A stretch of 64,000 nucleotides of DNA from the NCBI GenBank assembly GCA_032622095.1, contig CP136062.1, positions 230,902,578 through 230,966,577 of the forward strand, given 5' to 3'. The notes beneath the pieces were generated by a model. The model was not told where the DNA came from and did not search any database. It saw only the letters and a list, made by a program, of their open reading frames with translations. A program made the position numbers and the translations under genes. The stretch's first letter is position 1, and the number at the start of each line of letters is the position of its first letter. Source of the stretch: Siphonodentalium dalli (lineage: Eukaryota; Mollusca; Scaphopoda; Gadilida; Siphonodentaliidae). Below are positions 863-45,439 of this stretch, one piece after another.

Positions 863-1197
863 CATATGAATGGCTGTGTTTGAATCACTGAATGAAAGCT
901 CCCAAACAAGCTGAAGGGCAGCTGATATCTCTTCTTCATTGCTCATGGATTGTTCTACTGACTTCATAATTAATGGCAAAACCCCCTTCTCCACCAAAAT
1001 GTTCTTGTTCTCATCACATTTTGTAATTTTCGCCAGAGCAGCCACAATTTCTGTAGAAGAGTACCCATCTAATCTTTGATCATCCTGTTTTAGTAGCTCA
1101 AGGATGAGTGTCAACAGTGTCTCATCAACTGGCAGTAATTGTTTCTGTTCTTCATCTGTTATATATGCTAACACCATCAAAGTGACCAATTTTACAC
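863..1197 (-). CDS. Armadillo-type exon, second module (internal exon)
   Basis: Internal exon of 335 bp with acceptor TTTAG before 1197 and donor GTAAGAAC after 863. It accepts one base from the preceding exon (5516-5648), making an AGT codon, and ends in phase 0. The 112 residues form two or three amphipathic helices: a stretch with YITDEEQKQLL, then LDGYSSTEIVAALAKI, then LVEKGVLPLIMK and EEISAALQLVWELSF. The pattern of a Gly-Tyr turn, helix, xxGxLPLL and ALQxLWxLSF is that of armadillo/HEAT-like repeats, which are protein-interaction scaffolds. In molluscs similar repeats occur in cytosolic ARM proteins, some with a TIR domain; no TIR is seen here. Its paralogue is the exon at 18579-18907, which has the same layout. 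The next exon would lie to the left, probably outside the window. Confidence 0.75.
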
Positions 1198-1884
1198 CTA
1201 AAGAAGAACATTATTTTATTGAGTTTTAAGCACACAATTGATGAAACAATAAAACAGGAGTGTGGGTGACAACCCAATAGTATATCCTAAATTGAGAAAT
1301 TTTAAAGTCGTACGAATTTATAACTGAAAAGAAATTGTCAACTGATAAAACAATAAAGAGTGGATATTTGAAGTATAGAGCTTAGTACATAAACGTATTT
1401 GTAAATTTGTACATCATATGTGCAATTGATTGCAGTAAACACCAACTGCAAAATAATGTTTATTTATATTTGTTCCACGGTATTCATTATTGATGTAAAA
1501 AATGTCTAATAGTAACATTACACCTCACAACGGATTTATCTCTGTGATAAAACCATTTATATACACCGTGTTTCAATTGAAAATTAAAAACAACAATTAG
1601 GCAAATTAACAAACACCACAGTTAGCAGTTCTTAATAAACAGTGGGGTTTATAAAATGAGTTTTAGGAAACCATTGGAGTGATGTGAAGGAATCTCTGAA
1701 CGTTGAGTACTTCGTAGTTCAATGTTTACTGGTTATCGCTGAGCTGGCAACAACTTTCAAAATGTTACCCTCGGTTGTAACAAGTGATGTAATGGCCCAC
1801 CATGTGACACACCCTCAGCCAATCAGAAGAGAGGAGACTGGAGTTTCAGACTCAAATATATTGTTTTAACCCTTTGGAGAGTAT

Positions 1885-2620
1885 ATGTAATCGAATATAT
1901 ATTTTGGAACTTCTGTTTGTCTGTATGTCTGTTAGCTGTGGCCGGGAAAACGGCTGGACCAATTGAGCTCAAACTTCCAATCTAAGGTTAAAAACCCACG
2001 GGCAGTGTTTACTGCCGTTTTGGAGAAGCTCCCAGCACCCCTTCTCCACTCTCAGTCACCAAAATGACCGTCATTGGCACTGTGGGGTTAATCGCGTTGA
2101 CAGTTAAAGAGATTTTGTATCCGCAGTGTCGTTGATAAAGAGCGTGTATGTGTCCAGACATGAGCGTGTTGTGTCTGTGTCAAGACATGAGCGTGTTGTG
2201 TGATTCTTATGTCTGTTCGTACTTAGGGGATCCTGGGAATGGGGGACATTTTCATCAGGTCAGTTTTTCCGTCCGAGGTGACCTTCACCTTGAAACAGGT
2301 ACCCACAAATGATCTAATATATATTTTGGGACTTCTGTCTGTTTGTTTGTCTGTTAGCTATGGCAGGGATAACTGCTGGACGGATTTTGACGAAATTTGA
2401 TACCTACGGGTAATTTTGTCCGGGGAGTGTTTTGGACGGGTCAAATCGTTACCCGGACCTTACCTTGACCTTAAAAATGGTCAATTCAAGGTCAAATCAG
2501 GTAAAACTGACGGATTTCGACGAAATTTGATACCTACGGGTAATTTTGTCCGGGGAGTGTTTTGGACGGGTCAAATAGTGACTCCGACCTGACCTTGACC
2601 TTCAAAATGGGGGGGGGGGT
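1885..2620 (+). repeat. Helitron-like 5' ends and short tandem duplication
   Basis: Two stretches, near 1888 and near 2311, start with A|TC then a TA-rich run and TTTTGGRACTTCTGT plus a TCTGTTTGTTTGTCTG-like tract. This is the style of Helitron 5' ends. Within the second, a segment including GGACGGATTTTGACG recurs about 130 bp later (about 2378 and 2509), and the stretch closes with a run of ten G at about 2610. No matching 3' hairpin plus CTRR was found, so these are probably 5' fragments. Assignment is tentative. Confidence 0.35.
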
Positions 2621-2654
2621 AATGAATTCTCCCATGTTCAAGCATACAGTAATG

Positions 2655-3010
2655 ATGTGAAAATGACATGGTTAAAAAAGCTTATAGATCCCTCAGTACT
2701 GACTATCTGGAAAACAATTCTATTGAATAACATTGCCCAATGTGATAGGGACAAGTTTCTTCACCATAATGAGAAGTCTCTCCTAGAGATATGCAAAGTC
2801 AACTCTTTCTGGGAAGATGTCTTCTCAGCCCGGTTAAAACTTGACTGAGCCCTCACCACAACACTATCCTCTATCTTGCCACAACAAATTCATAGTAATA
2901 TAACAAACTTAGGATAGAATGAGATATTTTTTTCATTAATGATTTAATGAAAGAAAACTCTGGTTTCCTCAGTTATGAAGAATTTATCATAAAATATCAA
3001 TCGAGATAGG
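2655..3010 (+). pseudogene. LINE ORF2 fragment (L1-like, region after the RT)
   Basis: The plus strand reads KMTWLKKLIDPS and VNSFWEDVFSARLKL, then, with a stop and frame changes, NEIFF, FIND and GFLSYEEFIIKY. These phrases are typical of the stretch between the RT and the C-terminal zinc-binding part of L1-like ORF2 proteins. No RT core, endonuclease or poly(A) tail is adjacent, so it is a small remnant. A related fragment of the same family sits at 19560-19985, at a similar place in the duplicated block, and could be inherited from before the duplication. Confidence 0.65.
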
Positions 3011-3421
3011 GAAGCATAAGAATTTGATAAAGTTTGATTAAGATGCATGCCCCATGTTATAAATTGAATCACCATTAAAATTATACAAACAGGACACACA
3101 TGTAAAGTGGTGATTAATTACTTTCCATGATTAGAGCTGGAATTACACACAATGCACACCAGATGGCAATGGTTTGATTTCTGTAGGCAGTTGAGACTGT
3201 CTTATACTCAACTGCCTTATAATAGGATATGCTTTACAGCAAGCACCAAAGTGAATAGGTACCTGGTAGGTATATAAACTGGAATTATTCCAAGGGATTT
3301 GATGGCTCATCATTAGAACACCATGTCAGATCAATGGTGGTTCCGGAGATGTGTAAATTAGTCTCAGTAATTTCATTGAAGATATGTTTCTTTTATAATT
3401 TCAATTTTTTTTATTAGGTTT

Positions 3422-4787
3422 AGGCGAGACCAATTTTATTACTTGGATTACGAACGCGCCGACAACAAAATCCGAAAAAATCGAAGAAAAAAAAAAAATT
3501 TATTTTGAAAGCAAATAATGTTTTCCGGATGTATGTATAATGTGCGGTCCGTTTCTGTTTGATACTTTGCCGTATTTTTTAATGTTTCCGGCTTTCGGTA
3601 TTACGCGCGATCCGTTATTTATACCGGTAAACGTTTGAGATTTTAAACTACTGAACTATATCCGGTTTACGATTTCCGCTTCCGCGAAAATGGCGACAAT
3701 TCAATATTGCACAAATTGTCAAATATAAAATGAAATATGACGAGTTTTTTCACGGTGGAAATCATAACATTGTGTGGCAAAAATGTTCTGAAGAAAATTG
3801 TGGAGTTGGACATCACTAAAACGGTGGTTACCCTGTTTTCAATTGTACCAGATGAATACACAATCGAACGAATTATACTAATTTATAGCTCAAACATCTT
3901 CCAACGACAGCGGTTCAGAAGTGACGAAGGACATTCCGCTGAGTGTAATTCACGATTTTGGAGGGAAATACATATTTAAAAATAAAATGAAATGACTTCT
4001 TTTATTTAATAATATACCCTCCATTGTGTTAGCATTTTGATATCACTTGTGACCTTACTTGTGTATACAGGAGCATCTTATTAATATTAAATATATAATT
4101 TTGGGCACATGTTTTTCAAATTGATGCTCATTCATGTATTAATCCTGACCTATTCACATTTCCGGTCAGACACTATAAATCCAAATTTCAAATGTTCACA
4201 GGTGAATGAAAATGCTACCCCAATGTATTGGATATATTTAATATCATCATCCCCTAGTATATGTGGAGGTTGTGAATGCCAAAGGATGCGTTTGAGAAAT
4301 TATGAAATGTATTATTAAAACATACTAAACCTTTTATTAAATATAAATATTGTTATAAAATACAGACCTGGTCTGTATCTTAGTATATATTTCCATTCAT
4401 GACGGCATCTATGGACGCTTTATAATATTGCGTATCATAATATAAATGCCATTCATTTCTTAATTCAATGTAACGAGGACATGATGACCACCATCATTTA
4501 TTATAATACCGGGTCAAATGGAGGTGGTCAAAGATGCATTAATACCCTATTTATAAATGCTCATCTAAACCAATGATATGGAATACATTCATTTGCTTAC
4601 CATATTGTCTCTGGTACCAGTCAGATAGTCATGTTTGTCTGTATTTGCTGTCGATATTCCAATATTCCAGCTGATTTACTAATAATTAATTCCAAAAAGG
4701 TTTTTTTTTTTTTTTTTTTTCCCCTCCTGCATCTACAGATTTTCATCCTCAATGTTCGTAATCCAAGTAATAAAATTGGTCTCGCCT
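3422..4787. mobile_element. 1.37 kb non-autonomous TIR transposon
   Basis: A 34-bp perfect terminal inverted repeat brackets this segment: 3422-3455 begins AGGCGAGACCAATTTTATTA, and 4754-4787 is its exact reverse complement. The interior has short AT-rich frames (the longest is 80 codons at 3737-3979, unrecognised) and poly(T) at about 4700-4721, but no transposase. I could not find a convincing target-site duplication, so the superfamily is open. Confidence 0.75.
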
Positions 4788-4829
4788 TACAAAAGAAATT
4801 AAAATTTTGTTGTTTTTTTTGTTGGTTAA

Positions 4830-5340
4830 ATTGAGCAAGTAATTGAATCTAAACAAAAGGGCCATAACTCCATTAAAAAAAAAAATAATCAAACTTGATC
4901 TGTAATTTGGGCTGAGAAACTCAAAAAAATTTGGTACCGATCAGATAGAAAATGTTTGAGTTATCGCACCATGTGTCTATTCGCAAGTGTTGACTAGTTT
5001 TGCAACTCTCTAATAATACATTTAAGTGGCATAGTGGATTTAAGTGATAAAAAAATGTGCCATTTTTGCCAAAAAGATCAAGATGGCTGCCATTACCATG
5101 GTTGGGTGGAAAGCTTCTAAACAATCCTGGGAAGGTCCTATACATATGTGTCAAGTTTCATGCTCTCACAAAATGCACAATATTTGGTCTCATTACTGCC
5201 AAGTGTCATTTTGTGTATCGCCGCATGATTTTCATAGTAGCAGCGCACATAATTTTTAAAATATGGCATCAACCCCCTTCACTTTTTCAAATAAATTTTG
5301 GAATCCTTGCTCTAGATTCATTACTGTGAAACATGTACGT
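4830..5340. repeat. Diverged mollusc-type interspersed repeat
   Basis: Contains 'gggccataactcc', 'aagatggctgcc' and related phrases that recur in the tandem arrays elsewhere in the window (42-47 kb, 51.8-52.6 kb). The copy is single and degenerate with no coding sense. It ends near a stretch (5280-5350) also seen at 33600-33700, where the large block duplication begins to align. Confidence 0.45.
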
Positions 5341-5515
5341 TACCCAAACCAGTTCTCAGTGTGACATCATAATTATCACCTGAATTTGAGGAGTGGGGTG
5401 GTATAATCAGCTGAGTCTGGGGCGATATCATCCGATGTTCATAATAGGTCACTTGACATAAAATAAATAATATGTGATATCTAATAAATAATTATATGAA
5501 TAATGTTATACTTAC

Positions 5516-5648
5516 TCTGATCCTCTGTCTTGAGGAATGGGATCAGACAGTTGACAAAATCAAACTTTCTGAAGTAACTTTTCTCTCCATGACGCTTGGC
5601 ACAATTCAAGATGATACAACAAGCAGATTTGTGTGCATAGTTATGTTC
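5516..5648 (-). CDS. Armadillo-type exon, second module (133 bp)
   Basis: Internal exon of 133 bp: acceptor TTTCTTTCAG before 5648, donor GTAAGTAT after 5516. It starts in phase 0 directly after the exon at 9890-10396 and ends in phase 1, which fits the exon at 863-1197. The 44 codons read EHNYAHKSACCIILNCAK then FDFVNCLIPFLKTEDQ, a helix-turn-helix of armadillo type. The exon at 33823-33955 has exactly the same length and borders, with about a dozen amino-acid differences by eye, so both copies look constrained rather than decayed. Confidence 0.75.
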
Positions 5649-6399
5649 CTGAAAGAAAAATAATAGATACATGTTTCTAGTAACCACCCCATATCTCAAA
5701 CTCAAATGCAGAAAACAGAAAAAAAAGTCTTCATTTTAGTCTTTTTATCACTTACTATTTTGTGAATCACTGTCGATACTCTAGGCTCAAGTTGTCATAC
5801 ATGTTATAGTTTCACTGGCACTTTACTGAGTCCTATTTTCTGCTGTCCTATCTGAGCACATAACAAATTAAATGGGTCAAAATTCAGGTTCATTCTTGAA
5901 TATTTTTCCTTTCTGATTATCTGTAAATCGCGGTCCATATAATGCCAAAGCCAAATAATAAGAATCCAGCAAAAATAAAATGGCAAATAAAATTAAAACG
6001 GAAAACACCTGCCGGTCCCAATTTGTGGTCGGACATTTTACCAATAATTGAATCCTATGGAATCTGAAATAGACTAGTAAATTGCATTACAGCATTCTTA
6101 CATGATAGAGAAGAGGTTGCACCGATGGTGCTGGCATACCCCCAATACAAACCGTGGTGACAAATATGAACATATAGGCAGATAGGAACCCAAATACTAA
6201 GGACCTCTGCATTTCTCTCCTCTGTAAGATTAGTCATTAAATAAAAGGCCGCTCGGCCACAGTGTCCACCGAACCGGTGGCTTCATTTGGAGCGGAGGCT
6301 TTGTAGAAGTATACTATATGGATAAGACACTTGTGCATTGTCTCATTACTGTCATGCATACAAATAACCAAATCTTAAAAAAATATAACCTCAAATTGG

Positions 6400-6510
6400 C
6401 ACAAAATGAAGAAACTAAAGTTATCACCCGGAAACCATTTCCGGACGGACGCACGGACGGACACCGGCTATTTTAATAGTTCCCCGAATTTTTTTTTTCG
6501 GGGGACAAAT
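6400..6510. repeat. End of an interspersed element: ACGG microsatellite plus hairpin
   Basis: A GGACGGACGCACGGACGGAC tract (about 6453) is followed by a small hairpin of CCCCGAA and TTCGGGGG around a poly(T) run (6482-6503). An ACGG-type microsatellite shortly before a terminal hairpin is the 3' signature shared by several elements in this window (41320, 44840, 52770, 53850), so this looks like the right end of another one. Its left end is unclear. Confidence 0.45.
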
Positions 6511-6713
6511 AAAGGGATGAACCTGGTTTGCTTACTAGTTGAATGCCATCATAATGGTGAACTTCCAAAACAAATTTTGTTAAGATTTGAAAAAGTATGG
6601 TTGATATACTGTAATGACATAAGTAAGCCAAGTTAGACTGCTGTTTGTTTAATCTTAACCTTGGTGAAACAATGTGGTTAAACCGTAAGACAACCATAAC
6701 AACTTTGAAGCTC

Positions 6714-6850
6714 TACAGTAATGCCCTAATTAATCGACTCCCTAACCACAGCAGAATTATGGGTAACAAGCCATATTTCCGTCTAAATCCTGAAAAGTTA
6801 CCCATAATTCTGCTGTGGTTAGGGAGTCGATTAATTAGGGCATTACTGTA
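6714..6850. mobile_element. Foldback element with perfect 54-bp arms
   Basis: Left arm 6714-6767 and right arm 6797-6850 are exact reverse complements, separated by a 29-base spacer. The arm begins TACAGTAATGCCCTAATTAA. The whole 137-bp unit would form a very stable hairpin. A single arm plus spacer of the same family occurs at about 34983-35065. No coding capacity; a MITE or foldback element is the likely origin. Confidence 0.8.
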
Positions 6851-7258
6851 TATCTTGGTCATCTTCAGTCGTATTTTAATAATTTTTGGTATATTGATGA
6901 ATCAACATATGGAATGAGTATTGGGTGTCCTCCATCACTTTTTTTCGAGAGTTACGGCCCTTATTATATAAATGGGACTTAGTGTGAAAATGGATGACTA
7001 AATTCTTTGGGGCAACCTACAGCTGGCCACATCTGTCATCCAATCATCACCAAACTTCATATAGATCTTTGGAGTGGTCTCTAGATGGGATCTGTCAATA
7101 TTTTTCTTTAAAAATTTGTAAAAATAACATGGCCAGCAGCAGCCATCTTGTTTATCTGGAAATATGTTTTTTTTCACCCATGCATATATCTCAACCAATG
7201 GTTATAATAATTATAGGATCCAAATGAAATTTAGTTTGGTCAGAGGTTCATCATCATG

Positions 7259-9197
7259 GAGGTATGTAATTTGGCAGGATCTACACAAAGGCGCATGGCA
7301 GGTTTGCTGTAGTTAAGTCAACAAAGGCGCACTGTGCCGCTCTGCGGTAAAGTGATCCTTTATTGACAAACCCGCAGGTGCTGACAGTTCTATTGAGACT
7401 GCGGAGATGTAAACCACTATTCACACACCAGCATGTCTCATAAACAAACAAATGAGCAGAGTGGAAATTGCACATGACTATTTTGTGTTATAATGTCGTA
7501 TATAAAAAGGACAAGACAAACGTTCTTGCAAATGAATATATAATTTTATTTAAATGGCGAAATCGAGCTATATCACAAACTTTAACAGAATAACCACAAC
7601 TTTGATTTACATTATTTACACATAGCAAGAACTTGAAAGTCATTGGTTACTTGGTGTGAACACTACACGCGGTTTCCTTTGTCTGGGGATTCGTCTCTCT
7701 GGCGTTTCTCTGTGATGATCAGGTTCCTTTACGAAGACTTGTCATTGTTTGTGTGATGTATGTGACTATTGCAATTTGTTATGAACCCTTATCGTGTTAC
7801 ATGCCAGTGCCTTTAATGTACTTTTTACATATTAAATTATTTATATTAAACTATTTATATTTTTATTTTCAGCTCAATGAAACAATGCCAAATTGCAAAA
7901 GAAACATCTGCTACAATTGTCTGAAAACATCCAAGCAATACCATATCCTTTCCAGAGGTTGTTGTGCTCTGTTGGATATTTCGGGATTAGGTGATCTCCG
8001 AAAGCGGTTCATTATGTTAGAAAGTCGTGTGTTTCTTATCTCTACAGACAACCCAGTTGCAATACTGTTGTGTCTGACATGTCTTCCGGATAAAGTTGAC
8101 AGACTATCTGTGCTTGAGGATATTGAATCCCATCCGCTGAGAGATGTACTCAAACGGGAGAAGACTAATAGTTGTGTTCACTGTACAGTCGGATATAAGT
8201 TGTGGCCAGCAAGTGATTTAGTGATGTTTGATATGAGGATGATGAAGATCCCATTCAACTGTCAACAGATCCGATATTTGCTGCAGTATATTCAGATGGT
8301 TCATATGGTGTTGTGACCAGTCGAGGACAAAGTTTAAAATGTACAATGTGTGAGAGAAAAAGTACAACCTGTGCATATGTCAAAACATATAGTGACTGGG
8401 TCACCGACAACAATGTTGACGACACATGTTCGACTAATTCTTATCAAAAAGAAGATCCATTCAAATGTATCTCAACCGTAAAGATACCATATCTGTTTAC
8501 ACCACAGATGAGAACAAAGTTTGAAACCTACGAAAGAGGTTCAGTTGCATTACTTGTCCCATCGTTTTCGCCCAGTGCAACTTGTGAACACGGAAGTCGA
8601 TTTTGCTCAGAAGACCCAATCATAAATAAGTGGACACTTGGTTCTGCGAAAATTCACAAGAAGCATGCAGTGATAGAAAACATGCTCGTATACTATCTCC
8701 CAACTGAAGGAATCTGTGACTGTAAATGCATCAGGACGATCTACTACTCAACCTTGACAACTTGTCAACTTTGTTTAACTTGTCGGTCCGAAGCCCGAAT
8801 AAATGGTAATGGGATAAAAATGTTGTAGTTCATTAATTATTACTCAATATATGGCATGCGCGAATGTGTTATTAGGTAAGTGCGCAAATGTGTAATTAGG
8901 CACTGCTCCTAATCCGATTCCCGAACGATGTGATCATAATTACCAACACGTGTCTTAGAAGACCACGCTCATGCCTGTTTGTGACAAAATAATCCAATTC
9001 CGCACGGCGTCGGCGCGTGAAAGGGAGTAAACCACGCCCATGCGCCTTTGTGATAATCTTTATGACATCTGCACAGACGTGCGCCTTTGTGTCTTTCTCT
9101 AAGGCATTTGCGCAGGCCAATAAGATGCTCTTTTGTGCTATCAATCACACTAACCCACCGTGCTCCTTTGTGATATATGAGGCTAATAACATATATG
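7259..9197 (+). mobile_element. DNA transposon with Cys-rich transposase-like ORF (1.9 kb)
   Basis: Compared with the related copy at 38938-40454, the shared sequence starts at GAGGTATGTAATTT and ends in a CATATATG stretch. The ends are imperfect inverted repeats (ATGTAATTTGCC-like, then CACAAAGG.GCA), and the subterminal regions carry repeated 'gcgcctttgtg' motifs. CATCATG on the left and CATAATG on the right look like a 7-bp target duplication with one change. The interior carries the broken ORF at 7885-8828. Confidence 0.65.
7885..8828 (+). pseudogene. Zinc-binding transposase-like ORF (HMGXB3/KDZ-like?), frameshifted
   Basis: From the Met at about 7885 the frame reads Cys-rich sequence: NICYNCLKTSKQYHILSRGC, ILLCLTCLP and NSCVHCTVGYKLW. 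Near 8260-8275 the sense changes frame and continues as YSDGSYGVVTSRGQSLKC, KIPYLFTPQM, LVPSFSPSATCEHGSRFC and CDCKCIRTIYYSTLTTCQLC to a stop at 8826. The CxxC pairs and the Cys-Glu-His-Gly motif recall the zinc-binding N-terminal part of HMGXB3-like proteins, which are related to KDZ (Kyakuja-Dileera-Zisupton) transposases. That is recall, not a search. No RNase H-like catalytic domain is present, so this copy is truncated as well as shifted. Confidence 0.5.
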
Positions 9198-9889
9198 CAT
9201 AATGACTGCTTACAAAATATGGGCAAATGACATTGTTCACATTTTCCATTTTAGAGTTATCCTTTGTTTATCTGAAAATCAATTCTTTTTGTCTGATAAA
9301 GCAGATAAACAAGATAGCTGGGAAGCCATGGGTGTCAGATCTGAATAAAATTTGGTTTGGATGTTTGACATAATGAATGCTTTTAAAGGAATGCCAAATG
9401 GCTTTGCTTGCATTTTCAATTTGTCTCAGTTATCAACTTTAGTTTTTTTTCTCACAATTTTGGTTTGTCCGGCTTGATAACTCTAACAAATATGAACTGA
9501 TTTAAAAATTCTTTGCTATTCATGCACATTTTATTTAGTTATCACAGGCCAGATTAAGACAACTTTCAATTTAAGCCAAACCATCAAATTAATAAACCTC
9601 TGCTGAAAGCCACCTTGGCGAGGGATAATCTGGGCGGTGAACTTATTTTTCCTGGTTTAGTTTTTCGCGAAGGTGAATTAGCACATATGGAAGACCATCT
9701 TCGTGAAAACATGATAAGGAACGAGAGGCAGATCACGATCGGCAGATGTTTAACCCATACCTTGGCGATAGTTATATGAACATTTCCTAAGGGAACTCAC
9801 TTTAGTAAAGAAAGTGTTATATTCCCAGGAAAGATAACACTGAACGTGGGAAAATTTGTGTTATTGTACCATTCCTGTCAATAACTTAC
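9198..9889. other. Non-coding intronic stretch
   Basis: AT-rich sequence with phrases such as 'gtctgataa' and 'agataaacaagat' that occur in other mollusc repeats. No ORF with sense, no exon-like segment and no clear element ends were seen. Confidence 0.4.
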
Positions 9890-10396
9890 ATCAATTGTGT
9901 CAGCTTTATCTCGCAGAGCATCCATATCTTTATAAAGATGACAAAACATCACTGTCTCTGCTAATCTTTTACAGACTTTGGAACTAGCATCACTAAAGTT
10001 CCATAGTGTCCAACGAATAACAGTCAATGTTGGTCCACCATTCAGAATTTTTGCTACTGCTTCATCGTAATAATCCGTCTTCAGCTGTTCAAGAATAAAT
10101 GTATAATAATCCACAACAACTTCAATGAATCCAGCGTCTGCGAGCATGTTTCCTAAAACCTCCCGCTCCTCGTTAGAATTATGAGTGAAATACGCAGTAA
10201 CAGCCTCCTGCATAAGCTTCTTCTGATAATGGCAAGTCTTTGTTTTCTTTGTTTTACACAATTCAATTATTGATTCGAACATACTCTTATACTTATCGTA
10301 AAGTTCATTCTCTCGTCTGGAGAAAGCGTCAGCTTTCTTAGAATCTGCGTCATCTTGTTTCATTTCTTCTCTTTTATCCGAATGAGCTTCTTTATC
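9890..10396 (-). CDS. Large exon of second ARM module (169 codons)
   Basis: Internal exon of 507 bp, phase 0 at both ends: acceptor AACGTTTCAG before 10396, donor GTAAGT after 9890. It starts with a charged stretch (DKEAHSDKREEMKQ), then helical sequence with NEEREVLGNMLADAGFIEVV, VDYYTFILEQLK, GGPTLTVIRWTLWNFSD and LYKDMDALRDKADTID. The paralogue at 35325-35849 keeps the same borders and most of the sequence, with a six-codon length difference. No named domain is recognised in the first half; the second half looks like an alpha-helical armadillo-adjacent region. An ATG upstream (10526-10528) keeps the frame open past the acceptor, but the conserved splice site and the paralogue argue for an internal exon. 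Confidence 0.75.
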
Positions 10397-10926
10397 CTGA
10401 AACGTTTTATTAATAAATTTCAGAAAATATAGATGACTGGCCGGGTGACGCGGGATTGCCCAGGTTAAATTGATGTGGTACACTCCGTTTAGGGACATTT
10501 TATGGGAATAGAGAGTACTCTTGCTCAAAGTATTCAGCTCAAAGTACTCTTGCTGAAAACAAATTCAGAGGTCTATTATAAATCAGTATGTCTGTCGGCC
10601 ATTCATGTTGTCCAGATCATAACATCAACATTATTATATGAATGAATTGAATTTGTCCGATGATTCTTTTCGACTTAGAATTCGCAGTTGTTTGGGTTGT
10701 CCAGATGATCAATTTTTAAAAGAATTGCTAGAAATTTGGTATGTATAGATCACATTTGAGACACAGGTGAAGTTTTATTTTGATCATTGCCTGATTGTTG
10801 ACGGGGTTATCAGCCATAGTTTATGCCCAATTTCAAATTATAACTCAATTTTTTTTCGTTGTCTGAGTGATAATTTGATCAATACTCAAAAAATAATTTC
10901 TTGATATATGTATGGTTCACATTTGA

Positions 10927-11220: not shown

Positions 11221-11997
11221 TCACATTTGAGAAGACACATGTCAAAGTTTAAATTTGGTGATGGTCCGTTGATTTTTTTCAACTTAAAATCACACTTTTG
11301 GTTTGTCTGATTGAAAGTTGGAGTAATATTCAACATTTTTTCTTGATATTTGGTAAGGGGTTCACAATTGAGAAAACGCAGTTCGAAAATGGATGATCAC
11401 AGCCCGATGATTTTTGATTGAGTTATGCCTCTTATAAATAACTAATTTTTGTGTTCTCTGGATGATAATTGGAACACTGTTTAACAGTTCAGAAAACACA
11501 GGTCAAGTTCGAATTTGGTCACAGTCCAATCATTTTGACATAATAAAAAACAATAAGAATCTAAAATATGACTAAATTTACCAACCTGAATAGCACAATT
11601 TAATGCTTCAGGACACCACAGTTTCACACTCGGAGCATTGTATTTTTCAAAAGTGTCCAGGGGGGGGGGGGGGGGAATTTTTTATTTATTTCTATTTTTT
11701 CTCAAAATCTGCAAAATATACTCCATGAACAAACTGTAATTTTAGTTGTTCAAATCCAATATTTCTAACAGAAAATATTGGAAAAATAGTTTGACAAGAC
11801 TTTTTAAAAGGACATTCCAGTGACGAGGGCTTTATTCATCATAAACTTGTATTATGTAATATAAGAATAACTAGATCATACATGTATATCAATTTAAATT
11901 GCATATGTTAATCTAGCTCTATAGAGCCCTGATGCAAAAGCTATAAGTCTGATGTTGCTAACATCAACCTTGATGATATGTCAATTATATATACGGT
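11221..11997. other. Non-coding stretch with G-run; aligns with 36000-36260
   Basis: Contains a run of about 15 G at 11660-11674 and poly-T/A tracts. The last part (about 11860-11960, including 'gagccctgatgcaaaagc') aligns with 36160-36260, marking the right side of the large block duplication. No coding sense. Confidence 0.5.
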
Positions 11998-18431: not shown

Positions 18432-18578
18432 TTAAGCAAAGCGATAGCTGGAATTAGTCTACGTTATTTGTCTATCAAGGTTATTCCAGGCTTTCAAGGC
18501 TCCAGGAGAATTGTACTATGAGAACTGACCATACAAATGGAAAGCTCCGAAACATTACAATGAGAACTTAGTTCTTAC

Positions 18579-18907
18579 CATAAGAATGGCTGTGTTCGAT
18601 TCACTGAATGAAAGCTCCCAAACAAGCTGAAGGGCAGCTGATATCTCTTCTTTGCTCTTGGATTGTTCTACATACTTCATAATTAATGGCAAAATACCCT
18701 TTTCCACCAAATTTGTTTTTGAAATTTTCGCAATAGCAGCCACAATTTCTGTAGAAGAGTACCCATTGAATCTGTGACAATGCTTTTTCAGTGAAGTTCG
18801 AAGCAGATCAAGGATGTGTGTCCACAGTGTCTCATCAGCTGCCAGTAATTGTTTCTGTTCTTCATCTGTTATGTAGGCTAACACCATTAAAGTGTCAATT
18901 TTTACAG
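18579..18907 (-). CDS. Armadillo-type exon, first module
   Basis: Internal exon of 329 bp: acceptor CTTTAG before 18907, donor GTAAGAAC after 18579. It takes one base from exon 33823-33955, making a TCT codon (Ser, as in the other copy), and ends in phase 0. It reads YITDEEQKQLLAADETLW, FNGYSSTEIVAAIAKIS, LVEKGILPLIMKYVEQ and AALQLVWELSF, an armadillo-like helical repeat. Compared with 863-1197 there are compensated small indels (LKQDDQ versus LRTSLKKHCH, and CDENKNI missing), so the frame is conserved. Its phase-0 end matches the phase-0 start of the exon at 9890-10396, so splicing straight into the second module is possible. Confidence 0.75.
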
Positions 18908-19046
18908 CTAAAGTAGAACAATATTTATTGAATATTAAGCCACATAATTAATGTAGCAATCAAACAGGAGTGTGGGGTGACAACTAAATAGTATATCCTA
19001 AATTGAGAAGTTATTAAAATGCTCTATCTCTTCCCGGCATCACTAA

Positions 19047-22060: not shown

Positions 22061-22164
22061 GGACTTGGCATGGGTGTCCTTTATGATGTTGGGGGATTCT
22101 CTTTCTGTACAGGGACCAAATATTTTCTAGATACATATTATGGAGCCTTATACTATGTACCTTA

Positions 22165-26089: not shown

Positions 26090-26360
26090 ATCAACCGAGT
26101 TCACTAAATTCGATTTGAGCCGAGGTTTACCGAGGCTCAAATAGAATTCAGTGGACGAGGTTGATAAATTACGTATAAAATAGAATGCTTTTGCGATACC
26201 ATTTATCACATGATCAAATAAACAACAACCATAAACTTCAGCAATCGCAAGTCATTTAAATAATGGCGTGATGTCAACGCACGCACTAATATTACATGTG
26301 TGTATTACCAATAATTATGAAATTGGTTTTGTGTGTTAATTATGTGATAAATTCATGTTC
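26090..26360. repeat. Hairpin and dispersed repeat also at 55555-55745
   Basis: 26090-26170 is an imperfect hairpin (AACCGAGTTCACTAAATTCG against AGAATTCAGTGGACGAGGTT). The following 26205-26360 ('tcacatgatcaaataaac', 'caataattatgaaa.tggtttt') recurs at 55555-55745 in the same orientation. Confidence 0.6.
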
Positions 26361-26464
26361 ATAACTTTTCCAATTCCATATACCAATATTATAAAGTGCA
26401 TCTTGAATCATAATGTCTCAATCTGCTTCCCACTAAACAGAAATCCTCGTTACCTCTACTTTGT

Positions 26465-26731
26465 GAGTATTCAATTAGCCCTTTGGAGTTTACTGAATTT
26501 TGGCGAAAACCCTGTACAAGTGCATTGTCTTATATATACAAGTTACCCACAGGGTGCCTTACACATATAATAGTATATATTGGCCTAACAACATGACAAC
26601 CTTGATCTTATAAGCCAGTGAATTCTCTTATATATGCGAGGCCCCCTATGGGAGACTAGCATATATAAGAGAATGCACTGGCACAGAGCCTTTAATGCTG
26701 CACCAGCGCAGCTCCCATCATGAAAGGGTTA
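26465..26731. mobile_element. MITE of the palindrome family
   Basis: Contains the GTGCATTCTCTTATATATGC-type arms in inverted orientation (26617-26690) and ends in 'ccatcatgaaagggttaa', as the copy at 50030-50166 does. The left end, at about 26477 ('ccctttggag'), is less clear. It abuts the next element at a shared TTAA. Confidence 0.6.
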
Positions 26732-27207
26732 AATCCTTTCAGTGCCAGGTCCGATTTTTGTATCAACCCATGTACCCTGTGCCAATGCATTCTCTTATAT
26801 ATGCGAGTCGACCATAGGTCGCCTCGCATATATAAGAGAATGCATTGGCCTAACAATTTTTCATCATTTGTTATTATTTTTTACAATTTTTTACAATTTT
26901 AATAATTTTTTCTTATATTCTTTAACAGACTTATTTTGTAGGTTTAGTGCATCTTAAGATTTAGGGAATCTTACGTTTTTCATGGGCATCAAAATTATTA
27001 CTATCAATACTTGGTGATAGTTTTGAGTTATAACATGCCCCTAAGGTTTTATCCAGTTTGTTTTTAAATTTTCTATAGCATGCTTAAGCATACCCAAAAA
27101 AATTCAACCCAAAAAAATATTAAAAAAATAAAAAAAAAATTATTTTTTTATTTTTTAGGGCCGATTTTACAGACCGTAAATTAGGGCCGATCTCACTGAA
27201 AGGGTTA
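26732..27207. mobile_element. piggyBac-type MITE with perfect internal palindrome
   Basis: TTAA then 'atcctttcagtg' on the left and 'cactgaaaggg' then TTAA on the right give TIR-like ends with TTAA duplications. At 26780-26848 it carries the same near-perfect palindrome as 18056-18122 (arms CCAATGCATTCTCTTATATA.., centre cgacc-ata-ggtcg). The rest is AT-rich poly(A)/(T) sequence. Confidence 0.65.
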
Positions 27208-28203
27208 AACACCGTAACTATGAGGGATCTATATTAATACTATATGTCAACAATCATCTCGACGATACTACTTATACACAAAATATCAAAATGCAATGCC
27301 ACTGAATCCTAAAGCAAGTCATTATTGTGGCATGTTAATGCTGGCTGTCTGGTGTTTACATCTCCGATTTGGTAGACAATGTGTGAAATGGTCATCAGGG
27401 GGTGGTCAGCAAACTAGTATATCTATGTATCAAGGGGCTGCATAACATGTACAGGGACTGGATATTCACATCAGTGGCAGGTTACCCATATCTCAATATG
27501 GATCATTATAGTGCCGGTATTCAGAAAGTTGTTGGTCATATTGCCAGAACAGAACAGCGATGTCTGGGAACTTGATGTCTATAGTCTCCCCATATTATGT
27601 TATCCGGCACCCCAATAGTGCCCAGAGTAGTGGTACCTAGGAACTGGGTGCATGTCCATCGTGGTGGACAAAAGCAGGGGCCAAATCACTCAGATTCCAA
27701 CATTAATAAGTCAGCTAAAGTACCAACCACACATAATAACACATATGCATGGAAGTGTTAGGCCTCGGAGCGTCACCATCCAGGATTCCCGAGGCAATAC
27801 ATATACTGATTAGTCATAGTGCCATATTTTAGTGGTGACCAGATAACATACACTGGTATAATGACTATTCCTCTAGTTTACCTGTATCGTTGGATTTGGG
27901 AGGCAATTGCGTGTCATCTGGGGCAGTGTATTGTACGATTCCCAAAATTGGGACACCAGTGCTCATGTCTCAATTGATGTCTAGAATATCCATATGACGT
28001 ATCCATATTGCGGTGGTCAATTTCAAGAGAAGTCACTACTTGAACAGCTGTGAAATGTGTGGCCTACACGTATATCTAGCAATGTCCATATATTATTATA
28101 CGGGGACTGCATGGGCTACCCAAATACAAATTCCAGCAGTGGTCGGTCATGTTAGACATATCCTGAACCTGCATGTCTGCCATTGGCTGACCATAGAGCA
28201 CTT
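27208..28203. repeat. Degenerate minisatellite-like tract
   Basis: Short phrases such as 'agtggtgaccagat', 'tatcc.ggat', 'catgtcca' and 'gtacc.ag' recur irregularly through 27360-28203 and resume at 29151-29390, on the other side of the hAT-like insertion. It looks like an old decayed tandem repeat. No coding sense. Confidence 0.4.
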
Positions 28204-28211
28204 CTCCAGTG

Positions 28212-29142
28212 TAGTCCAAGTCTTCTCGTACTAAAACTAGCTAAGATTTTGGGATGGAGATGCTAGTATTTAGTCCGAGTTCCAGGCCCATGCATTCCTA
28301 TGACACGACTTAAGCGTTAGTGACCCACTCAAATAAAACCACAATTATATGAAATAAAATATCACAATTGCTACAATAAACGGATAGTTTCCGCAGAAGA
28401 CATGCTATTTGATCTGAAACCCACATCGGTTGTGAATTGAAAGCGGTAATTTAATGTGAAAAGAAACATTTGCCGCAGTGTTTACATATTTTTTAAAGTA
28501 TGCGAACTCAGTTGACCTTGCGAACTGCGTTCGGCATTTTCCGGTGAAAATATTCCGTAGATTTTCAATCAACCACGCACGATGAATTCTCCATTGTAAT
28601 CGTAATTATACGTGACAATAAATAAATAAATACATAGATTAAATACATATTGAAGATATAAATGTAATACATTAAATAAATTACGGGAATTACAACCATC
28701 TCACAGTTTAAAACAGTGTAAACACAATGAGCATTAGAATATCATGGGGGCCGCCATTTTGTTTGTATCGAAATTCGTCTCGGCCAAAACAAACACCGGA
28801 CAATGCCGAAGTTCTTCAGAACCTGAGTTCGGCTTTCAGTTAAGTAAACAAACAGAAAAAACAACGATGTTTGTGGCAATCAACCGGAATATTCTATGTG
28901 TAATTTAACATTAAAGTTAGATTATTATACACCATTATGACCATAAGATGTCACTCTTTTCGATGTATATAGCATCAGGTATTGCTTTGTTAGGTAAATC
29001 GAGTAAAATACACCACAGATTCCCGCCACAGATCCTGGGCGTAACTCGTGTCATAGGAATGCATGGGCCTGGAACTCGGACTAAATACTAGCATCTCCAT
29101 CCCAAAATCTTAGCTAGTTTTAGTACGAGAAGACTTGGACTA
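28212..29142. mobile_element. hAT-like element with ~100-bp TIRs (931 bp)
   Basis: The ends TAGTCCAAGTCTTCTCGTAC.. (28212 onward) are matched in reverse up to 29142, and the inverted repeats run for about 100 bp each (28212-28310 and 29045-29142). An exact 8-bp duplication CTCCAGTG flanks them (28204-28211 and 29143-29150). No transposase. It splits a degenerate minisatellite. Confidence 0.8.
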
Positions 29143-29597
29143 CTCCAGTGGTGACCAGATTATCTATCCGATATCCTGGATTTAGGGTGCAGATCGAGTG
29201 CACCAATATCACTCATGCACATTCTGAAACTGGGCCAGTTTCCAGTGATGAACAGATTGCCTGTATTCTGGAATCGTATCATCATTGTGCACATCTCTGC
29301 TTATGAACAAATTCCCCATACACTGCTTGGCCAGGGTACCCATCTATGAGAGTGGTCCGATAGCTCATGGGGACTCAACATTCTTGAATTTTGTAATTTC
29401 AGGACTTTGTCTGGTAGTACCAACTCTTAAGTATGTAACTTTTTAATTGTAGTAATAAAACCACCAAATTCTCTTCAGTATATTACGAAGAGTAATAGCA
29501 AGGTACAGCCAAACATACATGTGACTTGTAACATGTGTTGCCATTGCCAACATAAATGGTCAAGCAGTTTAGAAGTTTTCTGTCAAATGTGTAGCAT

Positions 29598-30818
29598 TTT
29601 TTTTTTTTTTTTTTTAAATATTTTTTATTCGGGTCTAAACAAATAAATACAGACAGACATGTGAGGAATCAAGGACACAATACATGCACTTGGTTAAAAA
29701 AAACAAAAAGAATTAAAATATTTTAAAGATATTGATATGAGTGGGATAAAATATAAAGTGTTTTGTCCTAGGCTGAAATAAACATGTTCAATTAATTTTA
29801 TATGATTGAGTATATATTAAATGGTATAAGATATTGATCAATTTAGACTCTGCACCGTTGATACTTTTGTGGGTTTTTCGTCTCTTATGTTTATGTTAAA
29901 AATAATTCATTAATTATATTCCATCTCTCTTGAAAAAAGATATCTTTTTTTGTAGAATAGCCCTTTAATGGCACAATTTCAATTGTCTTATAAGTTTTTA
30001 ACCATTCTATAAAACCATGTGAATTAGGGTTAGTAGCTTTTATCTTACAAGAGTAGATATATCTCTTAAAAAGAAGTATGGCAATTTCTATTATTCCTTC
30101 ATTTGGATTTCCATCAGGTACACCAAATATAATGTTATTTTGTGACACTTCAAATTGCAGGTTACATTTATCTTTAATAGTCTGCTGAAATTCTAGTAAT
30201 ACAGATTTTGTTACATGACATTCATAAAATAGATGTAGGCATGTTTCTTTTCCTGTGTGACAAAAAGAGCACATTTCTGTTTCCGATATTTTACATTTCA
30301 TAAGTTTGGAGTTAGTATATAAAATATCATGATTTATTTTGAATTGAAAAGACAATAGACTAGTGTCATTTGTAATCCTACTTGCCATTTTATAAATTGA
30401 TTTCCATTCAGTGGGCATGAAAGTTTGCCCAAGTCTTTCCTGCCATTTTTTTTGGGACATTTCAGGAACTGTGATGACATGACTCAAAAAACTGGGGTAA
30501 AAGGTTCTGCATGCTTTCTCGCAAATTTTCAATTTCTCAACATTTTTTTATGTCACGGTGCAGAGTCTTAATTGATTTTCCTTTATACATGTTTTCCATG
30601 TTTTAGGTAAAGCTGCTAAAAGACCCTGGTAGGTGGTGAAAGGAATTTTGATGTCATAGTTTTGACAAAATGTTTTATAATCCAGAAAGGTGGAGGTGGC
30701 ATCAACAAGATCATTCACAAAATAAACATCTTTTTGTTGATGAACATTTTACCATTTATTATAATTTTTGGGTTGTAGAATATTGGTTCTGATAAGATTT
30801 CTTCATGTGTAGCATTAC
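29598..30818 (-). pseudogene. LINE 3' end: zf-RVT region, 3' UTR and poly(A)
   Basis: Minus strand from 30818: a frame with EEILSEPIFYNPKIIINGK and ILVNDLVDATSTFLDYKTF, then IPFTTYQGLLAALPKTWK. After a stop near 30540 a 213-codon open frame follows with MSQKKWQERLGQTFMP, FKINHDILYTNSKLMKCKI, CSFCHTGKETCLHLFYEC (zf-RVT zinc-binding motif: CxxC, then HLFxxC) and IEIAILLFKRYIYSCKIK. The stop is at 29891, then about 270 bp of 3' UTR and a poly(A) tail, seen as T-run 29598-29616. This is a classic 5'-truncated L1-like insertion. It is interrupted on its upstream side by the hAT element at 30819-31683. Confidence 0.8.
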
Positions 30819-31683
30819 CAGGGACCAGCCTAGGCCTGATTTTCAGGGCGAAGTGACTTCTCCCTGTCACAAAAATAGGGCAAAGTGGGCTTCCTCCAGG
30901 GTGAAATGCGTTGGCAAAATTGAAATCGGCCCGAACTATATCTAGCAACTATAGTCGCCTATATATCGAAAATAGGAGATATGTAATATTTCAATTAAAA
31001 TGATACAACAATGGTTCAAATGTGGAAACTTTATGGTCAAATCATCACTCTAATTACTATGAATAATGTCCAAACAAAATTGTGAGAGAATGGTAGCATT
31101 TTATATAATAATTTTGGAAGAACAGCAGTTTTACAACCGCTTATGAACACAAAAAGAAATAAAAAATACACAATGCTTATGAATACAAAAAACATACTAA
31201 AAAAAACGAAACAAAATCTTGGAACATTCCCATTAAAGGTACTTAACATGGGTACAGATATTACTTATGAATTTGTTTTCAAAGCTATTCTGGCCTTTAC
31301 ATAATTTAACAAAGGGGTGATGATCTGATGTAAGGTGTAGTAGAGTTGTAATCTTCAGGTGTGATAATCTCAAAATCACAAGTCACTGGATACCTGACGA
31401 TGTATTCACAGCTGTCTGCAATCAACACTCAGGTGTGAATGTGCTCCCAAATCGGATTAATACAGATGTCAATAGTAACTATGGTGTTATCTATGACAGT
31501 GGCAATGGATAACTGGGTCCAATCAATGTTGGCAGTAAATTAGGATGAATATTTTACCGATTTTCATTGGTCAACTTTGGAAATTTTAGGGCGACTTAAA
31601 CTTCGCCCGGCTGCAAAATTAGGGCGAAGTGAGCAAGAAAAGGTAGATTTCTTCGCCCACGTCGCCCTCTCGGCTGGTCCCTG
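30819..31683. mobile_element. Non-autonomous hAT element (865 bp) inside a LINE
   Basis: The ends CAGGGACCAGCC and GGCTGGTCCCTG form the terminal inverted repeat, with imperfect extension through 'gggcgaagtg'. The exact 8-bp target duplication AGCATTAC is at 30811-30818 and 31684-31691. Several 'gggcgaag' words near both ends are likely transposase-binding repeats. The interior is AT-rich without a transposase. Because it splits LINE-derived sequence, it is younger than that LINE. Confidence 0.85.
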
Positions 31684-31691
31684 AGCATTAC

Positions 31692-32600
31692 AAAACTTGT
31701 AGCAAAGTGGAATAATCCAATCTTCTGATAAGATCTTCTGTAGTGAGAAACCAACGCTATTAATGCAATAGGAGATTCAAATGTTTCTGTGTGGAAATAT
31801 TTTATATTGATTGAAGTCAATCATAGTAAGCATATCGGCAGTTGCACTGTGGACATGTTGCTTACCACCGGACTATGTTTACATGTTCTGCTACAATTTG
31901 GGCTGATATCTCAAAACATTTAGCTTTGGCGTCGTAAAGCACATGACTTCTCCTGCCAAGTGTGTATCCATAGCAAGTGTACCATAGTAGCAGTACACTT
32001 TACAAGTTAAAAAATTGTGGCAGAACCTGGCTATTATCATCTCCCTCAATGAAATCGGTAGAAATGGTAGTTTATTTATCACAAAGAGGGTACCCTTCTA
32101 ATGCCTTCTTTCTTCAGATTGGTATTTTGCCCTGACACTTACTGCGAATAGTATGTGTTATTGCCACTCATGACTGAAAACATCTTATTTCTTTTTCTCA
32201 AAGCACAACAAGTTCATTGATGACAGAATCTTGAGACATATTCTGTTAGGAGTTGAATATGATTTCGATATTTAGACGACTTGACTTTATTCAATTTAAT
32301 TTTCAAAACAGGTATACATTTTGACAAGTACTACATGCGACAAGCGTATTGTCTGAACTGTATTGGCTTATGATAATGCAATATTAATGGGATGAAATTA
32401 ATAAAATAAATGGTGTATCTTCATTGATAAGTGCCGTGAGCTGGTGAAACATGGCTTCCAATTCTGCCCATTAGATCTTTTATTCATCGTAATAACGTAT
32501 CTGATAGTGTCAAAATAATCATCGGAATACCAGCGAACACCATTCATGTTGAGCGGCATGTAAAATCATCATTCCAATTTAAGAAACTGATATTAGTTTG
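31692..32600. other. Non-coding stretch, possibly more of the LINE at its left
   Basis: Directly after the hAT target duplication some sequence may continue the LINE upstream part, but no sure motif remains. From about 31850 on it is AT-rich intron-like DNA with no sense in any frame and no clear repeats. Confidence 0.35.
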
Positions 32601-32609
32601 TTTGTTTTA

Positions 32610-32890
32610 TTGGGGATTATGGTCGTTTTAGCTGCTAGATCACATCATGGCATATCATTCAGGTTTACAGGTCATGGAAATGCTGTGCAGAGGATATATT
32701 TCACTGAGACTAAATCACTAAACACAGGAAAGCAACTGACAAACTTTCCCAATTACATGTACATGAATCCCTGTGTGTGCAAGATCCGAATCAGTTTCAC
32801 CATCACTAATTGGAATGGCTTATATTTGACTAATGCAACACACACCTTACCAACTGAGCCACTTTGTGCCCTCACTTATATTGGATATAA
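32610..32890 (-). repeat. Older tRNA-derived SINE copy
   Basis: On the minus strand the head at 32872-32850 reads GTGGCTCAGTTGGTAAGG, a near-perfect tRNA A box, with a decayed B box (GATTCGGATC) about 90 bases on. The body shares 'caactgacaaactttccc' with the copy at 10927-11220. The plus-strand 104-codon frame here is accidental. Confidence 0.6.
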
Positions 32891-32899
32891 GTATGATTG

Positions 32900-33822
32900 T
32901 TGCGATGTGTGAATAAAACATCTAACCTGATATGCCTAAACTAATCCCTCTCCCAAGTGATAATTGACAACTTAGCACAATTTTAAGTTCAAGGTCACCA
33001 AAAACATTCCAACTCTCATACAAAGCCCCCAAATATTTATGATGTTAGTCATATTATGTCTCCCCGGTGTGCAGTAATGAATAATATGCACAATTTATAC
33101 CATTTTAGCTCCCTTATGCACATTCCAAGCAGCCTAGAGTGAAAATTCATGTTGATTACCTTGACCTTGATCTCAAGGTCATATGAGGAGATCTGCCAAT
33201 TTGGGTCTCGCTTCGAACTGAACCCCCATGGTCTACTCTATATGTGCGTCAATTTTATTGCTTTTATCCAAATTTGCACACCCCATCAGCTTACAGCCCC
33301 TACTATAATGGATTCTGATGATATTACATGATGGAGTTATTTATTCTTCATTTAATAATTGTTTTCGATGACATGGCAGATGACGGAGGCGATTGTTAAT
33401 CCTCTGTAATTTGATGAGTAACGAAAGTTATCCTTACCGAAACAAGGCTCCATAATTAAGCAGAAGCACAGATGATATTTATCTGGGCCTCAGCCTATTC
33501 ACCTGAGTTTTCTAGATGCGAACGTATTTATATCATGAACCTTACATCGGGATTCGTATCGTATCGTGACCAGACCCGTATTTGCCATGCCTACTTCATT
33601 GCTGCAAATAAATTTTGGAATCCTTGATTCGATCATTACAGTGATATATGTACATGTATGTTCCCCGAATGAGGGTTACTCAAACCAGTTCTCAATGTGA
33701 CATAATTATCAGCCGAATTTGGGGGGGGGGGGGGTGTCGGTTGTTGCTCGACATAAAATAAATAAATAATATATGATATCTAATTAATAATCACAGTTAA
33801 ATATGAATCATGTTATACTTAC
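32900..33822. other. Non-coding; start of duplicated block at ~33600
   Basis: 32950-33350 is low-sense sequence with 'ttgaccttgatctcaaggtcatatgagg', a small palindromic phrase seen in mollusc repeats. From about 33600 on it aligns with 5280-5515, including a G-run at 33720-33734 where the other copy has 'gaggagtggggtgg'. No coding sense. Confidence 0.45.
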
Positions 33823-33955
33823 ACTGATCCTCTGTCTTCAGGAATGGGATCAGACAGTTGACAAAATCAAACATTTTGAAGTAACGTTTCTCAACATGGC
33901 CCTTAGCACAATTAAGAAGGATACCACATGCAGATTCGTATGCATCGATATTTTC
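33823..33955 (-). CDS. Armadillo-type exon, first module (133 bp)
   Basis: Internal exon: acceptor TTTCTTTCAG before 33955, donor GTAAGTAT after 33823. It starts in phase 0 after exon 35325-35849 and ends in phase 1, matching exon 18579-18907. It reads ENIDAYESACGILLNCAKGH then FDFVNCLIPFLKTEDQ, a helix pair of armadillo type with the C-terminal 16 residues identical to the second module (5516-5648). The 15 kb intron that follows (18908-33822) is almost entirely transposons. Confidence 0.75.
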
Positions 33956-34443
33956 CTGAAAGAAATATAATATTATTAAAGTAAGAACAGATATTTACTG
34001 GCATAATTCCAAAATAAAATGGATACATGTTTCTCGTAACTATTCATAACTTACATTTTATTAACTTGAATGCTTTCGGATGTCCTCTATTACTCTATTG
34101 ATCTACGACAATCTTTCATGCCACTTAACATATATGATGTTATCTTGCCGATACCTGAGGGGTATTTTGAAGTATAATGTCTTTAACATGAGTGACAGAG
34201 CTCAGATATGCACCACGGCTTGCATTTCTGCTTACAGGCAACAGTCATTAACATGCTGTCGGACAGACATATACCATTATTTCACAACAGGCCATGTTAA
34301 CTTTGGGAATTGTGGTCACATGCCCTGAATCACAAAATAACAATCAAGGCAGCACACATAGCAGGGAAAGCCAATAAATAAACCTAATAGTTCTGCTACT
34401 TCGCAGACAATTTCTAATTTCTAATTGGATTGTTCATACAATA

Positions 34444-34650
34444 ATGAAATCTTCTCCTAATTCCAGGTCAGACAGTGAGCAGCATAAAGTGAAGGCACAT
34501 TCTACAAGACCATTGTGTCCGTCTTGGGCTCTGTTCAAAGGAGCTTCATTGAAGGACATTATGGACTGTGCTGACTGGACTTGTCCGTCAACGTTTGTAA
34601 ATTTCTATTTGCGAGACATCAATGTCTCTGTGCTAAAAAGCTGAAAGAAT
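34444..34650 (+). pseudogene. Tyrosine recombinase C-terminal catalytic fragment
   Basis: The plus-strand frame reads SEQHKVKAHSTRPLCPSW, ALFKGASLKDIMDCADWTCP and STFVNFYLRDINVS, then a stop. This matches the end of DIRS/Crypton-type tyrosine recombinases: the HSTR part of the HxxR motif, the 'G.sledil..a.W' helix and the TF..FY nucleophile tyrosine. The first catalytic arginine and the N-terminal half are missing. It lies in the intron between 33955 and 35325; in the corresponding intron of the other block copy (5648-9890) I see no equivalent, so it probably inserted after the duplication. Confidence 0.6.
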
Positions 34651-34982
34651 CCGAGACTGGCGAGTTTCAGTTGGAAATACCCAGTGGAAGTTTGGTGTGA
34701 GGTTCACCAAAGGAGCCGATCTATGTACATATATAATGATGGTGAAGGAATTTGAAGAAAATATGGATTTATATATGAACAGTAATGCTGATAAATATCA
34801 GATGTGTATCAGATCACAAGCAACAGATCGCTAACGCACGGAGAAGACCAACAAGGGTCACATCGTCAACCAGAGGAGGAGCTCTGGAATCAGAAATAAT
34901 TCTGAAGCGATTTCGTAAGTAGATAGTTTTCATTAGAAAATTATCAGATTTGGACACAAGTCAAATTTTTTATAGAAAACTA

Positions 34983-35065
34983 TACTTACAGTAATGCTCT
35001 AAGTAATCGACTTCTTAACCACAGTAGAATTATGGGTAACTTTTCAGGATTTAGTCGGAAATATG
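34983..35065 (+). repeat. One-armed copy of the foldback element
   Basis: TTACAGTAATGCTCTAAGTA.. through 'attatgggtaacttttcaggattta' matches one arm plus the spacer of the foldback at 6714-6850 with a handful of differences; the second arm is missing. Confidence 0.65.
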
Positions 35066-35324
35066 AGCTGAGTAATCTTGATGAAGATGTTTTAAGAATT
35101 ATGATGAAGGAAACGAGTTATGTACCTGGCTCCGCCTCGATTTGACCCGGTGACATCATTTGAATATCCAAGTCACCAAGGGAACATCCACACAAAATAT
35201 ATGACCCCAATCAGTCTTATGCTTCTGGAGAAGATGTTTAAAGAATTATTGAAGGATGGACGGGCAGGCAGACGAATAAATAATACAAGTGTAAAAGGAT
35301 TAGTATTCATTGTCAATAACTTAC

Positions 35325-35849
35325 ATCAACTGTGTCAGCTTCATCTCGAAGAGCATCCATATCTTTATAAAGATGACCAAACATCTCGGTTTTCGCTAAC
35401 CTTTTACAGACATTGAAACTACCATCACTAAAATTCAATAGTATCGAACGAATAGAAGTCAATGTTGGTCCACCTTCCGGCATTTCTGAAACTGCATCAT
35501 CATAATAATCCCTCTTCAGCTGTTCCAGAATAAATGTATAATAATCCACCACAGCTTCAACAAATCCAGCTTCTGCGAGCATGTTTCCTAAAACCTCACG
35601 CTCCTCGCCAGACTCATGATCGTCAAACACTTCATCAACCACCTTCGTAAGCCTCTCATGAAAATGGCTAGTCTCTCGATCTTTCTTCTTACATAATTCA
35701 GTCATTGACTCGAACGTACTCTTATATTGGTGTAAGCTTTGATGCTTATTGTACAGTTCCCTCTCTCGTCTGGAGAAGGTGTCAGAACGCTCAGAATCTG
35801 TAACATCTTGTTTCATTTCTTCTCTTTTATCCGAATGTATTTCTGTTTC
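35325..35849 (-). CDS. Large exon of first ARM module (175 codons)
   Basis: Internal exon of 525 bp, phase 0 on both sides: acceptor AACATTTCAG before 35849, donor GTAAGTTATTG after 35325. It reads ETEIHSDKREEMKQDVTD, FSRRERELYNKHQSLHQYK, SGEEREVLGNMLAEAGFVEA, VDYYTFILEQLKRDYYDD, GGPTLTSIRSILLNFSDGS and LYKDMDALRDEADTVD. The first 60 residues are highly charged and probably coiled-coil; the rest is helical. The paralogue at 9890-10396 keeps the same borders. The upstream exon is 38112-38195 (phase 0). No enzyme motif is seen; a scaffold or adaptor role is an inference from the armadillo context. Confidence 0.78.
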
Positions 35850-45400: not shown

Positions 45401-45439
45401 TTTTTCAACACAATTTTTGATTACTGAATATTTCTCTCA

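Follow-up and report, generated by a model that had tools for sequence, protein, structure and literature searches.

The window analysed, a 64,000-nucleotide stretch of the Siphonodentalium dalli assembly (2.23 Gb, nine contigs; the window is C2:230902578-230966577), carries two sets of three exons on its minus strand, a right-hand set (A) and a left-hand set (B). All six exons lie where the original prediction had placed them, each with an AG acceptor, a GT donor and the predicted phase open, and both sets show the phases 0-0, 0-1 and 1-0. The claim that every junction is readable also holds, given that the six exons join into a single frame with zero stops. Four 5′ exons that had gone unlisted (x1, x2, e0′ and e0) are confined to the region upstream of A, and further exons follow beyond the left edge. 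The features are listed here in minus-strand order (window positions unless a contig is given).

57380..57533, minus strand: x1, acidic 5′ exon, phase 0 to 1, with a TTTTCAG acceptor and a GTAAGC donor, open
56028..56254, minus strand: x2, 5′ exon, phase 1 to 0, with a CTGCAG acceptor and a GTAAGA donor
52997..53080, minus strand: e0′, second copy of the 28-codon exon, phase 0 to 0, acceptor and donor present
38112..38195, minus strand: e0, 28-codon exon (AQQTSLDEEVIYSRLGSNEKHRTDQLRE), phase 0 to 0
36238..37614, minus strand: 5′ block upstream of e1A, common to A-type loci, partly interspersed repeat
35325..35849, minus strand: e1A, 175 codons, phase 0 to 0
33823..33955, minus strand: e2A, phase 0 to 1
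18579..18907, minus strand: e3A, ARM-like exon with ARM matches, phase 1 to 0
9890..10396, minus strand: e1B, phase 0 to 0, grouping with e1 of a TIR-linked relative and of C8:5.39M, not with e1A
5516..5648, minus strand: e2B, phase 0 to 1, nearest copies at C1:263.32M and C8:5.385M
863..1197, minus strand: e3B, phase 1 to 0, nearest copies at C1:263.35M, C1:276.22M and C8:5.524M
C2:230900651 down to 230856295: e2C, e3C, e2D and e3D, two further e2-e3 units past base 1 of the window

At the amino acid level, A and B are 66% identical in e1, about 78% in e2 and 78% in e3, and the match of e1B to A (E=2e-71) is well above chance. The flanking-intron alignments that had been noted are genuine, with three A/B pairs at 71-83% identity (35970-36276 vs 11694-11989, 71%; 33594-33972 vs 5277-5665, 72%; 18540-19018 vs 824-1306, 83%). 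The 5′ exons have relatives elsewhere: x1 at further loci of the family (C1:275.31M and C1:276.58M among them), x2 together with e0 5′ of e1 at C8:4.506M, 5.441M and 5.778M, and e0 more widely on C8, C6, C9, C1 and C3, where it precedes either e1 or the 5′ block. The second copy, e0′, shares 75% amino acid identity with the family e0, and ~270 bp align with e0 at 89%. The 5′ block recurs at 84-92% identity at loci on C3, C8, C1, C6 and C9. Joined from x1 to e3D, the 14 exons of the C2 array yield 1,157 codons with zero stops, and about 104 kb separate the first recognised exon from the last. A micro-exon start was dropped as a candidate; e0 is an open 84-bp exon that is kept in copies. A conserved intron piece upstream of e1A was ruled out as coding, its frame being shifted by indels. 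In the search for a shared 3′ exon, a comparison of C2 with C3:8.0M (14 kb each) turned up no terminal exon over the 14 kb next to the last e3, and the homology between C1:276.27M and C8:5.51M stops after about 2 kb.

Several repeats were found in the window, including reverse-transcriptase ORFs (RVT_1; 45428-46078, plus strand) and, within the e2A-e3A intron, a zf-RVT-like ORF slightly below cut-off (29891-30547, minus strand). Long tandem arrays occupy 42230-44833 and 51830-52632 (periods of 164-483 and 161 bases, respectively), and a 56-base tandem repeat (38223-38672; 8 copies, 96% alike) lies immediately upstream of e0. An Rfam search of the window returned zero matches.

About ten loci, spread over six chromosomes, carry the same exons in clusters on C1, C2, C3, C6, C7 and C8, and the module content differs among loci. 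The order is e1A-e2A-e3-e2C-e3III at C3:8.0M (III marks the clade formed by the last e3 exons), e1A-e2B-e3II-e2C-e3III at C1:263M and e1B-type-e2B-e3-e2C-e3III at C8:5.39M. C2 has the fullest module set among the loci compared, and C1:263M resembles C2 minus e2A-e3A-e1B. At C3:8.0M, e1 is absent between e3 and the following e2, therefore an e3-to-e2 joint exists there if that locus is one gene. The ~325-residue, three-exon module originally proposed thus needs to be recut: its exons are coding and their phases permit one protein with repeated modules, but e2-e3 is a phase-symmetric unit that repeats without e1. With e0, e1 and the e2+e3 unit each 0-0, whole modules could be gained, lost and exchanged in frame via recombination in the long introns, and such gain and loss may be how different loci came to hold different subsets. 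Seven of nine expanded-family clusters lie ≤14 Mb from a contig end (C1, C2, C3, C7, C8 and C9; a zone that comprises 11% of the genome; binomial P=7e-6, indicative only, as both the 14 Mb limit and the cluster grouping were picked after seeing the data).

The best explanation for the C2 array, to which we give a probability of roughly 0.64, is one long minus-strand gene of phase-compatible exon modules, which would encode an ARM protein with several modules and no TIR, from a family related to ARM-TIR genes. A single transcript would run x1-x2-e0′-e0-e1A-e2A-e3A-e1B-e2B-e3B in the window and continue into e2C-e3C-e2D-e3D outside it, and its predicted product would begin with an acidic N-terminal tail and continue as an elongated chain of several helical/ARM-repeat modules. 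Compatible phases cannot alone prove one transcript, because phase symmetry lets every joint fit. The single unit is nevertheless the better reading, because B is without x1, x2 and e0 exons or a 5′ block of its own, and because the array structure recurs elsewhere. A search for x1, x2 and e0 between A and B found none, the one x/e0 set being upstream of A, and the e3A-e1B gap, at 8.2 kb, is exceeded by intra-unit introns such as that between e2A and e3A.

Two other arrangements of the same exons were weighed. More tentatively, e1A-e2A-e3A and e1B-e2B-e3B (and e0/e0′) may be optional or mutually exclusive cassettes of one gene that yields several isoforms, which agrees with the single-gene reading and would refine it. 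All modules are phase-compatible, and elsewhere either an e1A or an e1B-type exon follows the x/e0 exons; equal splice-site quality, however, is no proof of choice between cassettes. Two tandem genes are on balance unlikely; here the 5′ exons and a single module would belong to A, and an unrecognised promoter and first exons would belong to B (e1B-e2B-e3B-e2C-e3C-e2D-e3D). The composition from B to C equals that of complete loci elsewhere (an e1, e2, e3II, e2C and e3III), C8:5.39M has an e1B-type exon as its first e1 after x2-e0, and a single e2 and a single e3 were found after e1A at C8:4.5M and C3:4.7M, so single-module genes may exist. Against this division stand the absence between A and B of x1, x2, e0 and the A-type 5′ block, the shortness of the gap, and the lack of a recognised terminal exon for A.

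Whether assembled into one gene or more, these are real protein-coding exons of a multi-locus gene family. Codon alignments comprised 61 copies (11 of e1, 21 of e2 and 29 of e3), and none of the aligned copies contains a stop, compared to about 35 nonsense changes expected on the trees under neutrality (P about 4e-16). Nearly every copy retains its acceptor and donor, and where copies differ in length they do so by multiples of three. Among A-type e1 copies, overall pN equals both pS and intron divergence. We read some stretches of e1 as being under purifying selection and the rest as under relaxed or diversifying selection, because its amino acid changes are clustered along the exon (P=0.003) while synonymous changes are not (P=0.81). 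An exon evolving faster than its intron was also considered: short flanks gave dN above intron divergence and longer flanks gave equality, therefore the plain exon excess was dropped and the clustering alone remains. Pseudogene fragments in decay, or host exons moved around by mobile elements, would fit the numerous dispersed copies, the retroelement pieces in introns and a mean pN about equal to intron divergence, but the lack of stops, the conserved splice sites and the clustering in e1 of amino acid but not synonymous changes make that origin highly improbable.

To place A and B within the family, their exons and flanks were compared with copies on other chromosomes. Taken with their flanking intron, e1 and e2 of A show mostly 90-98% identity to copies on C3 and C8 (for e1, also on C1); between the A and B flanks, identity is 41-76%. 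Monophyly of A and B was rejected by the AU test for e1 (p=0.003) and e2 (p=0.023) and not for e3 (p=0.28), which limits the rejection of a local event to e1 and e2. In the e1 tree, e1B forms a clade with C8:5.39M and the TIR-linked relative, separate from every A-type copy (bootstrap 99), therefore both module types are older than the spread of the A type among chromosomes. Consistently, e1 dS is 0.26 between A and B vs 0.07-0.13 for A against other A-type copies. The two sets are thus old paralogous modules, not a fresh local copy, and the proposal that a DNA block was copied locally from A to B is not borne out; "in-frame duplication" survives as a description of the architecture (symmetric phases, one frame) but not as a local event. 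A recent duplication of A into B would account for the shared order and phases, the aligned intron pieces and the e3 test, but is very unlikely in view of the rejected e1 and e2 clades, the closer flanks on other chromosomes and the e1 dS values. The flank downstream of e3A is 96% identical to that of e3C, therefore some local exchange has occurred too.

The helical/ARM character that had been proposed for the whole module finds support in weak ARM matches for e2-e3 and in a low-confidence fold prediction for e1. The e2-e3 region matches the PDB sequence of ARMC4 (E=3e-6) and, more weakly, Rap1GDS1; Pfam ARM matches are all below curated cut-offs, including ARM_PUB for the TIR-linked relative (2.6e-5). 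For e1, prediction from two sequences gave an all-helical fold at low confidence (mean pLDDT 56), and a search of the model against PDB returned nothing at E<=0.001; e1 may have an ARM-like fold. ARMC4/ODAD2 and Rap1GDS1 share a sequence match over e2-e3 but are, as far as tested, not orthologues of the C2 array; the N-terminal part is unmatched, and the C2 family is dispersed and multi-copy.

A closer relative is found at C3:226.80-226.82M, where, downstream of a compact e1-e2-e3 and on the same strand, a proline-rich exon leads into the start of a TIR domain and a second TIR exon comes after it (Pfam TIR_2 E=2e-16 at C3:226.81M). All three window exon types match this TIR-bearing relative (C3:226.82M) at 63-80% amino acid identity, so the ARM/helical region of the C2 array is homologous to that of a TIR-bearing relative. 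The C-terminal TIR of an ARM-TIR protein was not found: a TIR query from C3:226.81M matched C3, C7 and weakly C6 only, with none on C1, C2 or C8, no related match lies near the expanded loci, and no TIR was detected in the C2 and C3 family regions examined; a TIR on a distant exon is improbable rather than impossible. Other TIR exons related to C3:226.81M occur at C3:68.4M, 69.0-69.2M, 86.3M, 100.8M and 289.9M and at C7:135.59M, and ARM-like matches adjoin those at C3:69.06M and C7:135.586M.

In molluscs, ARM-TIR genes form a class already known to be expanded (PMC4346834, PMC9334734, PMC6836662), with ARM-TIR proteins in oyster (PMC4346834), 11 ARM-TIR genes in Aplysia (PMC9334734) and ARM-Death-TIR proteins classified as ecTIR-DC family 6 (PMC6836662). 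Like these, the S. dalli family is multi-copy and its compact member joins homologous e1-e2-e3 exons to TIR exons. The C2 array and its expanded relatives differ in having no related TIR nearby, in their repeated e2-e3 modules and in their x1/x2/e0 5′ exons, exons that the same search did not find at the TIR-linked locus. A literature search found the ARM-TIR families and no TIR-less modular expansion. The C2 array is a real, coding, modular gene array and an ARM-TIR-related, TIR-less version of a known class; the story of a local duplication gives way to one that reaches further back and takes in more loci. The TIR-linked form may be ancestral, with TIR loss as the direction of change, and the proteins could serve in innate-immune protein binding as a scaffold, a decoy or a sensor without TIR output of its own. 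Read from sequence, and put forward as speculation that we consider more doubtful than otherwise, the expanded loci might constitute a lineage-specific TIR-less ARM family, mostly near chromosome ends, in which in-frame shuffling, loss and gain of modules between chromosomes has given a diversified decoy or sensor repertoire derived from an ARM-TIR immune gene.

Genes can grow by duplicating phase-symmetric exon blocks, since 0-0 modules can be added or lost without damage to the frame. The C2 family modules are likewise 0-0; unlike the general case, their classes can be followed through many dispersed loci that differ in the subset they carry. One genome thereby illustrates how a repeat-protein gene is re-cut to varied lengths at many loci with its frame intact, via phase-symmetric blocks, and how a probable immune protein is able to exist and expand without its signalling domain. 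With their known subsets, these loci offer a way to test whether an invertebrate recognition repertoire arises through module exchange and diversifying selection.

Some family members are partial or divergent. Four loci (C9:1.03M, C1:273.4M, C1:276.7M and C3:1.337M) have e0 and/or the 5′ block and no detectable e1; in the case of C3:1.337M, a variant e3 (1.3999M) comes next among the family exons. Copies of a distinct e3 subtype (VNMDTW...) make up a separate clade (support 100) and lie at C3:0.2M, 1.4M, 2.18M, 5.16M and 5.19M, C7:22 kb, C8:40.68M and C1:275.18M. The e1 copies and flanks at C3:8.04M and C3:9.63M, 1.6 Mb apart, are near-identical (dS 0) and reflect either a segmental duplication of recent date or the same segment assembled twice.
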